Shown here one piece after another: positions 11,950 to 18,247 of a stretch of DNA of 64,000 nt. The notes under the pieces are model-generated. The model ran no database searches. It was not told where the DNA came from and was given only the letters and a program-made list of their open reading frames with translations. This DNA is from Malaciobacter molluscorum LMG 25693 (GTDB lineage Bacteria; Campylobacterota; Campylobacteria; Campylobacterales; Arcobacteraceae): the NCBI RefSeq assembly GCF_003544935.1, contig NZ_CP032098.1:186001-250000 (forward strand), given 5' to 3'. Positions within the stretch are counted from its first letter, which is position 1, and each line of letters starts with the position of its first letter. The translations under genes were made by a program, and so were the position numbers.

Positions 11950-13326
11950 TTAATATTTTATTGTAAATTCAGAACCTTCATGGATTTTACTTTTAACTTC
12001 AAGTTTAAAATTATGTAATGAAAGTATAGAATGAACAATAAAAAGACCTAGTCCAAGAGAGTTGTTCCATCCATTTTTTGATACACGATAAAATTTTTTA
12101 TTAATTTTACTTAGTTCTTTTTCTTCAATACCTATGCCTTTATCAATAATACTAATGTATGAGTTAGTAATCTTAACTTTTACATCATTTTCAGAGTATT
12201 TCAAAGCATTTTCAATCAAATTTGTAAGAACCATTTCCATTAGTGTTTCATCAATATCTAAAATAACATCTTCTCCTTCGATTGATACTTCATGATCTTT
12301 ATATTTATCTTTTAAATCAGATATTACTCTTTTACAAATAGTTATCATTGAACATTTATTAAAAGTTGTTTGCTGTTTTCCTTCTTCTAATTTTAGTGAT
12401 AATCTTAATTTATCAATTATTTGAGTCATTTTATTACCGTTTGATTGTATTTTATTTAAAAATTTCTCTTTCATAGTCTCTGGTAAATCAGGATCTGCTA
12501 ATAATGTTTCACTATATCCAGAAATAATTGCAATAGGATTTTTGAATTCGTGAGATATTGCAGAAATAATCTCATCTTTTTGTCTATTTGCAAGTTTTAG
12601 TTTTGCTGTTTGTTTTGCTTTTTGTTTCTCTTTTTTTGATAATTTTTGTGCAACTTTATTTAATAGTTTTGCAATTTTATCAAACTCTTGAGTATATGTA
12701 GAACTAATTTCATAATTTATTTTCTTGTCACTTAAATCAATAAGATACTTTAAAATAGAATCTGTTTCATTTTTTATTTTTATACTTACAAAATAAGTTA
12801 CAATAAATGCAAGAATTAAAAATATTGTAATAATTGCAATAACATGAAAAGATAATTTGATAAAGTTTTTTTGTATTTTGTCTGTATAATCTGCAAGTCT
12901 TATATAATATGTGTTATCCTGAAGTTTAACTTTTTTAGCTACATATAATAGTTCTTTATCTAGAGTTTTAGAATAACGAATAATTTTTCCAATTCCATCA
13001 TATTTAGCATGAATAATTTCATATCTATTTTTATGGTTGCCCATTTTTGTCTTATCTCTATCACTTTCTACAATTACTTTTCCATTTTCATTTATTATTG
13101 TAATTCTTAGATTTGTTCTTTTTTTAAACTCTTTAGCTACTTTTTGTATATCGTTTATGTTATGTAGAACTAAAGATAATGAATCTATATTTTGAGATAA
13201 GTTTTTTTCAATTTGATCCATGTATATATTTTTGGACCAAAAATAAGTTGTAAAACTTATACTTAAAAAAATTAAAACAAAGATAATTCCATAAATTCTA
13301 AGAAAAAGTTGATGTATTTTTAACAA
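11950..13326 (-). CDS. Sensor histidine kinase, PhoR/PhosS-like
   Basis: 458 residues. One membrane segment near the N-terminus (about 8-28), a periplasmic sensor region of about 130 residues, a second membrane segment (about 160-185), a linker, then the kinase core: H-box SAISHEFKNPIAII (His near residue 255), N-box NLIENALKYS, G1 DKGIGI and G2 GLGLGLF. All catalytic motifs are intact. It starts with TTG and overlaps the end of its response regulator by 7 bases. Gene order phoU-psiE-regulator-kinase and the Pho-box-like promoter upstream suggest that it senses phosphate state; that is inference from context. Confidence 0.88.
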   Translation of the reverse strand: MLKIHQLFLRIYGIIFVLIFLSISFTTYFWSKNIYMDQIEKNLSQNIDSLSLVLHNINDIQKVAKEFKKRTNLRITIINENGKVIVESDRDKTKMGNHKNRYEIIHAKYDGIGKIIRYSKTLDKELLYVAKKVKLQDNTYYIRLADYTDKIQKNFIKLSFHVIAIITIFLILAFIVTYFVSIKIKNETDSILKYLIDLSDKKINYEISSTYTQEFDKIAKLLNKVAQKLSKKEKQKAKQTAKLKLANRQKDEIISAISHEFKNPIAIISGYSETLLADPDLPETMKEKFLNKIQSNGNKMTQIIDKLRLSLKLEEGKQQTTFNKCSMITICKRVISDLKDKYKDHEVSIEGEDVILDIDETLMEMVLTNLIENALKYSENDVKVKITNSYISIIDKGIGIEEKELSKINKKFYRVSKNGWNNSLGLGLFIVHSILSLHNFKLEVKSKIHEGSEFTIKY

Positions 13327-13994
13327 AAGATATATCCTTCCCCTCTAATTGATTTAATGTACTGTTTTTTCGAATCTGGATCTATTTTTGCTTTTAATCT
13401 TTTGATTGCAACATTTACTGTTTTTAATTTTTTATCAAATGAGTCTTCCCATACAGAATTTAAAAGATGTTCTCTTGATAATAAAATATCTTTATTTTTA
13501 ATAAATTCTAAAAGTAAATCATGCTCAAGATGTGTTAATTCTATAGGTTCATCTTCAATATAAAATCGTTTATTATTTGCTTTGTAAATAATATCTCTAA
13601 CTTTTAATATTTCAATATCCTTAGAGGTTCTTTTTAATACAGCTTTTACTCTTGCAACTAATTCTTTTAAGTTAAAAGGTTTTGTTATGTAATCATCTGC
13701 ATGATTTTCAAATCCTTCTAAAATATCTTCATCTTTATCTTTTGCAGTTACATAAATGACTGGATTATTATATCCTTTAGATTTTAATTCATTAACAAAT
13801 GTAGCTCCGTCTACTCCTGGAAGATTTCTATCCATCAAAATTAAATCTACTTTTTCTTCATCTAATATTTGATTTAAAACAGGGTTTATATTTAAACATC
13901 CAATAGTCTCAAATCCAGCTTTTTGTAAAGTATATTCTAAAAGTTCTAATATATCTTCTTCATCTTCAACTATTAGTATTAATTTGTTTTTCAT
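13320..13994 (-). CDS. OmpR/PhoB-family response regulator
   Basis: 224 residues: receiver domain with acidic DEED (11-14), phospho-acceptor Asp55 in MDRNLPG and Lys in YITKPFN, then a winged-helix DNA-binding domain (LTHLEHDLLLEFI, VNVAIKRLKAKI, IRGEGYIF). The fold binds tandem direct repeats about 11 bases apart, which fits the TGTAAYC repeats found before phoU and pstS in this same block. The ATG follows GAGGAT and lies inside the 3' end of the psiE-like gene (29-base overlap), so expression is probably coupled. Likely partner of the adjacent kinase. Confidence 0.9.
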   Translation of the reverse strand: MKNKLILIVEDEEDILELLEYTLQKAGFETIGCLNINPVLNQILDEEKVDLILMDRNLPGVDGATFVNELKSKGYNNPVIYVTAKDKDEDILEGFENHADDYITKPFNLKELVARVKAVLKRTSKDIEILKVRDIIYKANNKRFYIEDEPIELTHLEHDLLLEFIKNKDILLSREHLLNSVWEDSFDKKLKTVNVAIKRLKAKIDPDSKKQYIKSIRGEGYIFC

Positions 13995-14385
13995 TTTTAT
14001 CCTCTTTTAAATCTTCTAGAAACTCTTTTTTACCTGGAGAGTATTTTATAGCAAGTATTCTAAATATAAAGAAAACCATAATTACAACTAATAAAAAAAG
14101 AATAGTAAAATAATCTTTTTGAGGTTTAGATGTATAAATTACAACATCTCTAATTAAAAATATTATAAAAATATCTATAACAAATCTTAGTCTTAATTTT
14201 TCTTTTTTTATAAAATCAGAAATCATTTTCATAACTTCTATTATTACAATAAATTCTAACATTAAAACTATTGTTTTTTGAAAATCTAAATTTGCAACTA
14301 AGATAATTATAAATATAACTAATGCTGCTAAAAACTCATAATTGTTTTCAAAATAATTTTTAATCTTTTTTATAGCTCTTTTCAT
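13966..14385 (-). CDS. PsiE-like (phosphate-starvation-inducible) membrane protein
   Basis: 139 residues with about four hydrophobic segments (about 18-31, 37-58, 67-85, 92-112) and a charged C-terminal tail. The spacing, and LEFIVIIEVMKMISDFIK followed by RFVIDIFIIFLIRDVVIY, resemble the PsiE family, whose function is unknown but which is induced by phosphate starvation in E. coli. It lies 3 bases after phoU and its 3' end overlaps the response regulator start, so it is in the same transcript as phosphate regulators. The family call rests on pattern plus context. Confidence 0.7.
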   Translation of the reverse strand: MKRAIKKIKNYFENNYEFLAALVIFIIILVANLDFQKTIVLMLEFIVIIEVMKMISDFIKKEKLRLRFVIDIFIIFLIRDVVIYTSKPQKDYFTILFLLVVIMVFFIFRILAIKYSPGKKEFLEDLKEDKNEKQINTNS

Positions 14386-14388
14386 AAT

Positions 14389-15054
14389 TTATTGTTCTAA
14401 TTCTCCCCCAATATGAGCAAATATTATTAAATTTGCGATGCTTGAAGCTCTATCTGCACATTTTTCTAATCTTCTTAAACTACTTAATAAATTAAAATAA
14501 TCTTTTGAAAGTTCATAGTTATTAGTTATTAGTTTCAAAATATTTTTTTCTACCATAGCGTATAAATCGTCAGTTTTACTCTCTTCAACTAATACTTTAT
14601 TAAATGATTCTTCAATTATCTTTTCATTGTGTTCATCAAGCATTGAAAGAGTTATTTCTAATGCATTTGCAGCAGCTTTTTGCAAAGGAATTGCATATTC
14701 TAAAATAGCTGTTTCATCTAATTCTTCTGAAAAAGACTTTCTAAAAGTTTTTATAAATGTTTTGGAATTAGAACCTGCTCTAACTAATTCATTTGTTATT
14801 TTTAAGTAAGAAACCATTTCTCTTAAATCTTTTGCTTCTGGAGAATATAATGCTAGAGTAGTTACAATCATATTATCAATTTCATTTGATCTTGAAACTA
14901 ATTTTTTTAATGACAAATCAATATCATTAAATAGTGAAATATCATGATCTTTTAAAGCTTTTAATGAGATTTTATTAGCCTTTAAAACAAATTGTCCTAT
15001 TTGTTTGATTTCATTTCTAATAATCTCAACTTTATCTTCATACGTTTTTAACAT
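14389..15054 (-). CDS. phoU: PhoU-type phosphate signalling protein
   Basis: 221 residues, all-helical, with two PhoU repeats (about 5-100 and 115-210). The repeat features are RSNEIDNMIVTTLALYSPEAKDLREMVSYLKITNELVRAGS in the first half and the matching LLSSLRRLEKCADRASSIANLI near the end. PhoU links phosphate transport to PhoR/PhoB signalling. It is the first gene of the phoU-psiE-regulator-kinase unit and has a 227-base leader containing a Pho-box-like promoter. The usual pstSCAB neighbours are missing, apart from a PstS-like gene two genes upstream. Confidence 0.88.
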   Translation of the reverse strand: MLKTYEDKVEIIRNEIKQIGQFVLKANKISLKALKDHDISLFNDIDLSLKKLVSRSNEIDNMIVTTLALYSPEAKDLREMVSYLKITNELVRAGSNSKTFIKTFRKSFSEELDETAILEYAIPLQKAAANALEITLSMLDEHNEKIIEESFNKVLVEESKTDDLYAMVEKNILKLITNNYELSKDYFNLLSSLRRLEKCADRASSIANLIIFAHIGGELEQ

Positions 15055-15211
15055 TATTTAAATCTCCTGCAATATAAACTTTTGTTTTTCTATTAATTGA
15101 GTTTAATGTAAAAGTTGTTTCATTTATTAATTTTAATACCAACAGTTACAGTAAGTGTTATGCAATAAATACTTTAAGAAATTCCTGATAGTATTTTAAA
15201 TAAAAGCAATT

Positions 15212-15239
15212 AAAGTATTTGTTTTTACACAAATACTTT
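15212..15239 (-). terminator. Hairpin after the EAL-GGDEF gene
   Basis: AAAGTATTTGT and ACAAATACTTT form a perfect 11-bp stem with a 6-base loop, 43 bases after the stop of the EAL-GGDEF gene on the minus strand. The following tract is AATTGCTTTTATTT, so it is a moderate terminator at best. It also lies downstream of the predicted phoU promoter and so could attenuate phoU. Confidence 0.5.
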
Positions 15240-15255
15240 ATTAAATTTTTATAAT

Positions 15256-15286
15256 TTTATAAAATAATGGTTACAAGAAGGTTACA
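15256..15286 (-). promoter_or_regulatory. Pho-box-like promoter of phoU operon
   Basis: On the minus strand: TGTAACC (15280-15286), 4 bases, TGTAACC (15269-15275), 7 bases, TATAAA (15256-15261) as -10. Seven-base repeats with 11-base period and no -35 element are the hallmark of PhoB-family activation. The same layout occurs before the PstS-like gene. The upstream repeat overlaps the stop codon of the EAL-GGDEF gene. Confidence 0.65.
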
Positions 15287-17033
15287 GTAAAATTGATATA
15301 CCTAAAGGATTTTTCATCTGTTTAGAAGCTTTTTTGATTTTACCTAATATAGTATCAAGATTTTTAGAATTAGAATTCTGATTTATTTCAATAATAGCGG
15401 AAGAGACACTAAGTAAATCAAATTCTCTTATTTCACCAAATCTATCTTTTGTTTTTATATAACCATTTTCAATATCTTCATCATTATATAAGCTACTTAC
15501 ACTATTTTTGAAAAGTATTTGTATTTCATTTATTTGTTCATATACTTCTTTATAATCTAAATTTCTAAATCCTACAAAAAAGTCATCTCCTCCAATATGT
15601 GCAATAAGTGAACTTTTATTCAACTCTTTTTGTAATAATTCTGAAAAAATGAGAATAGCTCTATCACCTTGTCTAAATCCATAATAATCATTAAAAGGTT
15701 TAAAGTCATTAAAGTCAAAATAAACAATATGTGTTTTTTGATTTTCTTTAAAACTGTCTTGAATAAATTTATCTATTTGATTATTACCTGGAAGTTTTGT
15801 TAATGGATTCTGATTTTGTGCAATTTCTATATTTCTTTTATAGGATAAAGATAAAAGATTATTTACATTAATAAATCCCAAATAACAATTATCTTTTGTT
15901 ACAAATATACCTTTTGATTCATTCCCTCTTAAGTTAAACATTTCTAATGTTTTATCAATGCCCCAAGAAACTTCAATTGATAAAGATGATCTTATATATG
16001 TGCTTAATTTTGATCTAAAAGATTTATTTTGTGCCAATGACATACCATATTGAGAATATGATAATTTTTTTATATCAACTTCATAAATTACTCCAACTAA
16101 GGCACTATTCTCATCTGTAATAGGAACAAAAGTATTTGTAGGAAACTCTTTGAAATATAAAAAGAGATCATGCAGTGTAGAGTTTATATTTAACGGTTCT
16201 ATATATTGTATATAAGTTTTATCAATTAAATTATTATTGCTTTTTCTTTTATCATTTTTAAATAGATTTGGAACATTTTCATATGAATCTTTTATCTCTG
16301 CTATATTAAGAGTTGGTCTCGCAATTAAAAAACCTTGTATAAAATCGATATCAATATCTTTGCAAGTATAATATTCACCAATATCTTCTATTCCTTCTGC
16401 AATTACTTTTATCCCCATCACATGAGCCATATCTACAATTGAAGAACAAAACAGTTTTTTTCTTGAGTCCTTATTTATATTTCGTATAAAAAATCTATCA
16501 AGTTTTATAAAATGTGCTTCACTTAAATATAATAATTCTAAGCCAGAAATTCCAGTACCAAAATCATCAATTGCAATGTGAAATCCCTCATTCTTATAAT
16601 TATTTAATATCTTATTTATCATCAATTTATTTTGCATTGTTCCATTTTCTGTTATTTCAAAACAAATTGATTCTTCTTTTATATTTAACTCTTTTAAAAT
16701 TAAAGAAGTGTTTCCTTCTTTAAAATCTGGCATATAAAGAAGTCTATTATCTAAATTATAAAATAATTTTAAATTATAAATTTTTATATGATTGAATTTT
16801 TTGAATGCTTTTTTTCTTAAAATTAAATCAACTTTATATAAAAGTTCTTTATCAAATAAATTATCAAATAAATCTGGAATAGTTTTAAATCCTAAATTTT
16901 GGTATCCTCTAATTAAAGCTTCTACTGCATAGATTTTACCAGTTCTTGTATTTACAATTGGTTGAAATGCATAGTCTAATTTATCTATTAATAACAATAA
17001 TTCTTTTTCTTTATCTAATTTGGCAATTGACAT
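15282..17033 (-). CDS. EAL-CBS-GGDEF protein (probable c-di-GMP phosphodiesterase)
   Basis: 583 residues, cytoplasmic, no membrane segment. Order: EAL domain (about 15-250), a pair of CBS-like modules (about 275-400), GGDEF domain (about 415-580). The EAL domain keeps key residues: EAL at 38-40, FEITENG, IDDFGTG, EGIED and QGFLIARP. The GGDEF signature reads GGDDF, so its cyclase activity is doubtful; the domain may bind GTP and regulate the EAL part. Prediction: net c-di-GMP breakdown, controlled by a ligand at the CBS modules. It lies between the PstS-like gene and phoU, suggesting a link between phosphate state and c-di-GMP, which is inference. Confidence 0.88.
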   Translation of the reverse strand: MSIAKLDKEKELLLLIDKLDYAFQPIVNTRTGKIYAVEALIRGYQNLGFKTIPDLFDNLFDKELLYKVDLILRKKAFKKFNHIKIYNLKLFYNLDNRLLYMPDFKEGNTSLILKELNIKEESICFEITENGTMQNKLMINKILNNYKNEGFHIAIDDFGTGISGLELLYLSEAHFIKLDRFFIRNINKDSRKKLFCSSIVDMAHVMGIKVIAEGIEDIGEYYTCKDIDIDFIQGFLIARPTLNIAEIKDSYENVPNLFKNDKRKSNNNLIDKTYIQYIEPLNINSTLHDLFLYFKEFPTNTFVPITDENSALVGVIYEVDIKKLSYSQYGMSLAQNKSFRSKLSTYIRSSLSIEVSWGIDKTLEMFNLRGNESKGIFVTKDNCYLGFINVNNLLSLSYKRNIEIAQNQNPLTKLPGNNQIDKFIQDSFKENQKTHIVYFDFNDFKPFNDYYGFRQGDRAILIFSELLQKELNKSSLIAHIGGDDFFVGFRNLDYKEVYEQINEIQILFKNSVSSLYNDEDIENGYIKTKDRFGEIREFDLLSVSSAIIEINQNSNSKNLDTILGKIKKASKQMKNPLGISILL

Positions 17034-17131
17034 TTATAGCCTTTGTAGTTATATATATAGATCTTTGATTATTTGTTCGCGTTAATAAAAAAAGACCTGT
17101 ATATATAGCCAAAAAAGAGGCTATTCTCTTT

Positions 17132-18181
17132 TTACTTTAATATATCAATGGAGACTTTTACTCTTTTTTTTACAGATACTTTTACGGATTCTCTTTTATT
17201 TTTTGGTAAAGTAATTAATCCTATTTTATTAAGAATACCTTTTCCTCCAGTCATCTTATCACTCATAAATAGTTCAATATATTTTTTCATTGCTGGAACA
17301 TCTTTTTCATGAGAGTTTTTAATATAAAAATATAGTGATCTTGATATAGGATATTCCCCAGATGATATTGTTTTAGAAGTCGGCATAATACCATCTATTT
17401 TTGTACCAATTAATTTGTCTTTATTTTTAGCTAAAAATGAATATCCAAAAATACCAAATGCATTTTTCATTTTTATTAGTTTTTCTACTATGATATTATC
17501 ATCCTCTCCTGATGATATATAAACTCCATCTTGTCTAATTTTATGGTATTCTTTATATGCTTTATATCTATTTTTATCTTTGTTATATAAAGATATATAT
17601 GAGTTCATATTTTTAAAAGTTGCTTTTAATATAATATCTTCGAAAGTATCTCTCGTTCCAGATGATTTAGGCGGTCCATATATAAGTATCTCTCTATTTG
17701 GAAGTGATGGATGTACTTGTGACCATCTTTTATAGGGATTTTTAATTAATTTATCATTTTTATTAGGAACTTCAGCTGCAATAGCTAGGGCTAATTGTTT
17801 TGTTGTAATTGAGAATGGTTTATTTTCATTAGATTGTGCAAATATGATACCATCAAATCCTATTATTGCTTCTGTTATATTTGTAATACCATTTTTTTCA
17901 CATATTCTAAATTCTTCTTTTTTCATTCTTCTTGAAGCATTTATAATATCTGGTGTATTTAAATTATTCCCTTTACAAAATAGTTTATACCCTTCTCCTG
18001 AACCAGTTGAAATTATTATGGGAATTGGATAGTTTGTTGTTTCATCTAATTTTTTCGCAACAGCAGAAGCAAATGGATAAACTGTTGATGAGCCTACTAT
18101 TTTTATTTGATCTCTAGCATTAAGATTAATTGTTATTAATGCACTAGATAATAAAGTAAAAGAGGCTTTTTTAATCGTCAT
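17132..18181 (-). CDS. PstS-like phosphate-binding periplasmic protein
   Basis: 349 residues. Signal peptide MTIKKASFTLLSSALITINLNA, then DQIKIVGSSTVYPFASAVA, STGSGEGYKLFCKG, NASRRMKKEEF and GPPKSSGTRDTFE, all matching the PstS/SphX group (PBP-like-2). I place the start at ATG 18181, which follows GGGAAAG; an in-frame TTG five codons earlier gives a worse N-terminus. Promoter: Pho-box-like repeats with a -10 (18217-18247). No pstC, pstA or pstB follows, so it either serves a transporter encoded elsewhere or acts as a sensor. It is the first gene in the phosphate block. Confidence 0.88.
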   Translation of the reverse strand: MTIKKASFTLLSSALITINLNARDQIKIVGSSTVYPFASAVAKKLDETTNYPIPIIISTGSGEGYKLFCKGNNLNTPDIINASRRMKKEEFRICEKNGITNITEAIIGFDGIIFAQSNENKPFSITTKQLALAIAAEVPNKNDKLIKNPYKRWSQVHPSLPNREILIYGPPKSSGTRDTFEDIILKATFKNMNSYISLYNKDKNRYKAYKEYHKIRQDGVYISSGEDDNIIVEKLIKMKNAFGIFGYSFLAKNKDKLIGTKIDGIMPTSKTISSGEYPISRSLYFYIKNSHEKDVPAMKKYIELFMSDKMTGGKGILNKIGLITLPKNKRESVKVSVKKRVKVSIDILK

Positions 18182-18216
18182 ATTTATCTTTCCCAATAAA
18201 ACTTTTATAAAGAAAT

Positions 18217-18247
18217 TGTATAACGTGTTGATTACATTTTGATTACT
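18217..18247 (-). promoter_or_regulatory. Pho-box-like promoter of the PstS-like gene
   Basis: On the minus strand: AGTAATC (18241-18247), 4 bases, TGTAATC (18230-18236), 7 bases, TATACA (18217-18222). It has the same 7-4-7-7 geometry as the phoU promoter. It sits about 36 bases before the chosen start. A 15-base unit (TTATACAATTTCTTT on the minus strand) occurs on both sides of it, at 18209-18223 and 18254-18268. Confidence 0.68.

Follow-up and report, generated by a model that had tools for sequence, protein, structure and literature searches.

The pho box of the Campylobacter jejuni PhosS/PhosR system is reportedly built on a GTTTC-type word (Wosten is said to have described it in 2006). 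In Escherichia coli, the pho box bound by PhoB is composed of 11-base repeats with the word CTGTCAT (PMC4415409). Base contacts reported for PhoB are those of Arg201 with a guanine, of Thr194 and Val197 with thymines, and of Arg219 with bases separating the two repeats (PMC3973317). Pho boxes are also found at the plcP/agt lipid-remodelling loci of marine Alphaproteobacteria and others (PMC4796936). Pho boxes are thus known as a kind; the word and the phylum-wide series dealt with here appear to be undescribed in the open-access literature, where no description of an Arcobacteraceae or a phylum-wide Campylobacterota Pho box was found.

Two sites, A and B, were analysed in the window (the whole 64-kb stretch of DNA under study). 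They are, with a probability of roughly 0.9, Pho boxes, that is, PhoB-type activator-dependent promoters under the control of the adjacent PhoB-like regulator. Both very probably serve as phosphate-starvation control switches, with a word common to a large group of Campylobacter relatives. Like the E. coli pho box, they have two 7-base direct repeats with four bases between them, lie near a -10 and precede similar target genes. The E. coli word CTGTCAT is, however, absent from the repeats, which read TGTAACC, AGTAATC or TGTAATC (consensus TGTAAYC).

Two probable promoters of one geometry in the phosphate block

The genes and promoters of the block are as follows.

18215..18247, minus strand: probable Pho box B and promoter; repeats 18241-18247 and 18230-18236; -10 TACAAT 18215-18220
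17132..18181, minus strand: PstS-family phosphate-binding protein; TIGR02136 142 bits, below cut-off; probable ATG at 18181
15282..17033, minus strand: cyclic-di-GMP protein (EAL + GGDEF), conserved within the genus; gene located between pstS and box A
15254..15286, minus strand: probable Pho box A and promoter; repeats 15280-15286 and 15269-15275; -10 TAAAAT 15254-15259
14389..15054, minus strand: phoU
13966..14385, minus strand: PsiE-family (phosphate-starvation-inducible) membrane protein
13320..13994, minus strand: PhoB-like OmpR-family response regulator, proposed binder of the boxes
11950..13326, minus strand: PhoR-like (PhoR/PnpS-like) sensor kinase with a weak sCache-like periplasmic part

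Site A reads TGTAACC TTCT TGTAACC ATTATTT TATAAA (minus strand, 15286-15256) and site B reads AGTAATC AAAA TGTAATC AACACGT TATACA (minus strand, 18247-18217). The repeat pairs and spacings that the preliminary description had claimed before phoU and before the PstS-like gene are therefore present at both sites. It had placed the -10 as TATAMA at N7; a -10 exists at both sites, but following a multi-species alignment this assignment was replaced by TANANT at N9, two bases further downstream. The first repeat of site A shares bases with the stop codon of the EAL/GGDEF gene upstream. The position of that gene suggests a possible link between phosphate starvation and cyclic-di-GMP.

A matrix was built from 15 distinct sites before pstS and pstC of other species, at loci fetched by PhoU similarity and with the own genome left out. 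Although these training sites were picked by their repeats alone, disregarding the -10, an invariant TANANT stood exactly nine bases past the second repeat in 15/15, and also in A and B. From these invariant T-A-n-A-n-T columns the aligned Arcobacteraceae promoter is therefore WGTAAYC-N4-TGTAAYC-N9-TANANT. As in PhoB-type Pho boxes, two 7-base direct repeats with an 11-base period lie at a fixed distance from the -10, where a -35 would be; they precede phosphate-starvation genes and are conserved at orthologues.

In the window, WGTAAYC-N4-WGTAAYC matched exactly at sites A and B only, and the two sites account for two of the three exact matches to GTAAYC-N5-GTAAYC in the 2.8-Mb genome. The matrix scored B at 31.2, A at 27.6 and the third-best site of the window at 9.8; the best score in a 5.6-Mb third-order Markov null was 13.9. 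With up to three mismatches, the word showed no excess in the window (52 occurrences where 75 were expected), so the signal strength lies in near-exact matches and in their position. Counts of the word by itself, with one mismatch allowed, were discarded as evidence of enrichment, since the reversed control was commoner (41 versus 16 matches).

Loss of pstCAB upstream of phoU

On alignment with the related genome G026, about 2.86 kb carrying pstC, pstA and most of pstB is missing from the window. Two stretches now occupy the space between site A and phoU.

15106..15236, minus strand: filler of 131 bases of unrelated sequence in place of the ~2.86 kb
15055..15105, minus strand: final 51 bases of the lost pstB, which now serve phoU as leader and ribosome-binding region

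By this alignment, site A is the former pstC promoter, now reading straight into phoU-psiE-phoB-phoR; its repeats are identical to those of the G026 pstC promoter. The PstS-like protein is 74% identical to its G026 counterpart and the regulator 96%. The dN of the pstS-like gene is 0.147, compared with 0.081 between two other species, and the gene has been diverging fast since losing its pstCAB partners. In Arcobacter sp. CECT 8985 the PstS-like protein is reduced to a remnant behind an intact box. Presumably, a second pst operon took over transport.

The adjacent regulator and its co-occurrence with the box

The regulator carries Response_reg and Trans_reg_C domains and belongs to the OmpR/PhoB response-regulator family. 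Against the PhoB equivalog TIGR02154 it scored 174.2 bits (cut-off 296.2), this still being its best-scoring NCBIfam family, and the kinase scored 140.9 bits against the PhoR equivalog TIGR02966 (cut-off 334.2). Because both lie well below the curated cut-offs, orthology with the E. coli PhoB/PhoR pair is not formal. The recognition helix aligns with that of E. coli PhoB (KTVNVAIKRLK here, RTVDVHIRRLR in PhoB). Arg201, Thr194, Val197 and Arg219 are all kept, as they are in nearly all aligned Arcobacteraceae relatives, whereas Asp196 is replaced by Asn and His198 by Ala.

The regulator has an orthologue in 53 of 61 Arcobacteraceae, and 46 of these 53 genomes carry the strict box, as against 2 of the 8 without the regulator (Fisher p = 7e-4); by the strict pattern, seven regulator-carrying genomes have no perfect box. 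As for the two genomes with a box and no regulator, one may have a contig broken before the regulator, and in the other the matches lie away from recognised phosphate genes.

Alternative explanations for the two sites

That the repeats arose by chance within AT-rich intergenic DNA has practically no probability left. At three mismatches the word is no more frequent than in shuffles, as chance would have it, but the scores of A and B are far beyond a genome-sized null and the box is conserved at orthologous promoters across families; the null scores and this conservation refute the chance origin. Random genome frequency, or a lack of conservation before phoU/pstS orthologues, had been set beforehand as grounds for dropping a Pho reading; the near-exact motif does not occur at such frequency and is kept before pstS, pstC and phoU orthologues. 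The Pho-regulon interpretation of both boxes thus gains support from near-exact frequency and conservation alike.

It is very unlikely that the repeats are operators of some other OmpR-family regulator rather than of the neighbouring PhoB-like protein. Many regulators of this family bind direct repeats of 11-base period, and the genome is rich in them (89 first-look candidates); yet the box accompanies phosphate genes across families and co-occurs with the PhoB-like regulator, whose gene lies beside or behind the box in Sulfurovaceae and in the Campylobacter-like family. Somewhat less improbable, though still unlikely, is that site A has lost its role and survives only as a remnant of the former pstC promoter, with phoU-phoB-phoR transcribed from elsewhere. 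No pstCAB genes follow it any longer, and phoU begins about 200 bases away. Its box and -10 have, however, stayed intact while the flanking DNA diverged, phoU is strongly constrained (dN/dS 0.05), and Arcobacter sp. CECT 8985, also without pstCAB there, has an intact box scoring 20.9. The reading of A and B as functional Pho boxes under the adjacent regulator is therefore preferred.

The predicted Pho regulon in the genome of the window and across Arcobacteraceae

The genome of the window was searched by patterns and by stretches of sequence. The repeat with N9 and the -10 was found without mismatch at three places only, before phoU, pstS1 and plcP. The two outside the block are:

C1:1740632: pstS1, pstS of the second, complete pst operon
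C1:2727898: gene for a PlcP-like phosphoesterase, followed by patatin

Allowing one mismatch raised the count to 13, as against 3 in the reversed control; the additions include site B, one site at pitA and one at an olsF-like gene, the last scoring only 13.6 and so weak, close to the maximum of the null. A box scoring 22.4 precedes a 32-codon ORF, MFTEYSFLYLATVGFHLTGLSVIYYLQRHNLI (G000 C1:24323; L178, L308). The ORF is found in five of the six genomes of the genus, each with a box of 19 to 28.5 at equal distance (L309-L312). Its 32-residue product is predicted to be a Pho-controlled membrane protein, to our knowledge undescribed.

Across 61 Arcobacteraceae genomes the exact word pair gave 76 matches versus 32 for the reversed control, and 44 of the 76 precede recognised phosphate genes by our own count. 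Genes behind the matches found from the motif were pstC, pstS, phoU, olsF, two PhoX types, PhoD, a PhnF-type GntR/UTRA regulator and pitA; the expectation that pst, phosphatase and phosphonate-type genes would stand there was borne out. Starting from the genes, a site scoring at least 10 (about 22 are expected per whole genome) was found directly before plcP in 25/30 loci and directly before olsF in 26/30.

At plcP the best site ends 6-7 bases from the ATG in 28/30 loci (L142-L169). With the -10 so close, the plcP message would have almost no leader, and plcP mRNAs are therefore predicted to be leaderless. In several genera the divergent gene beside plcP has its own box with the same short spacing; by eye, its N-terminal sequence looks like that of a glycosyltransferase. 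The resemblance to the plcP/agt loci lies in plcP under a Pho box and, in some genera, a glycosyltransferase-like neighbour, whereas in Arcobacteraceae the box word is a different one and the -10 stands just 6-7 bases before the ATG.

At pitA the box lies on the opposite strand, between a TATAAT-like -10 and the start, which follows it directly (13/30 loci). This position suggests repression of the low-affinity transporter; the box could instead activate a divergent transcript. Divergently from pitA, some 215 bases away from its box, lies a conserved gene for a 70-residue protein that matches no Pfam family (L188-L196).

These data provide a usable phosphate-regulon matrix for the whole family, of which no published example was found, and predict phosphate-controlled membrane-lipid replacement in Arcobacteraceae together with a new small protein.

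Related boxes beyond Arcobacteraceae

The preliminary description had proposed a species-specific Pho word. A Pho word it very probably is, but one common to Arcobacteraceae and with variants in other Campylobacterota. Sulfurovaceae and other families carry TGTWAYC-AAAA-TGTWAYC, in the same geometry, before their pst and regulator genes. In a Campylobacter-like family of small genomes (f3, taken to be Campylobacteraceae), TGTTTCC-N4-xGTTTCC-N9-TANANT precedes pstS and PhoX, its geometry equal to that found here and its likeness being to the C. jejuni PhosS/PhosR box; a related regulator, 40-55% identical, adjoins the box in some of these genomes. In the Campylobacter-type box, word positions 4-5 are TT where they are AA here, and regulator residue 197 is Ile (7/7 regulators of the TGTTTCC family) where it is Val here. 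Hence the word does differ from the Campylobacter pho box in its letters (GTTTC repeats), as had been stated, but the 11-base period and the -10 distance are the same, and mixed pstS promoters, TGTAACC-AAAA-TGTTTCC, occur in Sulfurovaceae (L040, L043, L060). Sulfurovaceae regulators have Trp at residue 219, and their spacer is mostly AAAA. These links between residue and word are correlations resting on few independent events. A pattern search of the own genome found no GTTTC in both repeats with an N9 -10.

The intermediates link Arcobacter-type and Campylobacter-type boxes, with matching regulator changes, and offer a natural series for studying how OmpR-family regulators shift DNA specificity. 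We consider the odds about even that there was one ancestral Campylobacterota Pho switch of fixed geometry, its word drifting with the regulator (TGTAAYC with Val197, TGTTTCC with Ile197, Arg219 to Trp with a mostly AAAA spacer), and that it commands a lipid-replacement programme (plcP, glycosyltransferase, olsF) with leaderless plcP messages and the undescribed 32-residue membrane protein.

Proposed mechanism

Sequence, geometry, conservation, gene association, regulator co-occurrence and pstCAB loss were observed directly; we infer binding, phosphorylation, induction and the directions of effect. Under phosphate shortage the PhoB-like regulator would be phosphorylated by the sensor kinase encoded beside it. 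Two regulator molecules would then occupy the pair of 11-base repeats in head-to-tail orientation, in place of a -35, and bring sigma-70 RNA polymerase to the -10, which lies nine bases further on. Box B would turn on the pstS-like gene and probably also the cyclic-di-GMP gene behind it, while box A would turn on phoU-psiE-phoB-phoR, making the system autoregulated. Elsewhere in the genome the same word would turn on the complete pst operon, plcP, olsF and the gene of the 32-residue membrane protein, and the box over the pitA start region would probably repress that transporter.

Other box-like sequences

Two genera have a box-like repeat, TGTAATCTCCYTGTAATC-N10-TATAAT, in the gap separating tuf from a tRNA array (L013, L068-L070, L090, L105, L107). 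With N10 in place of N9 and only two genera, it was weighed as a regulon candidate but not adopted; it does not fit a phosphate role and was counted against the main reading. A palindrome-like match before gltB (L010) and matches inside genes (L004, L005, L014) were judged to be probably due to chance and left out. TGTTACCAAAATGTTACC lies about 290 bases before a 400-residue ORF (G235 C18:64356-64384, L136 and L141; G295 C1:931799, L135), with three tandem repeats in G235. This uncharacterised ORF is porin-like by eye.
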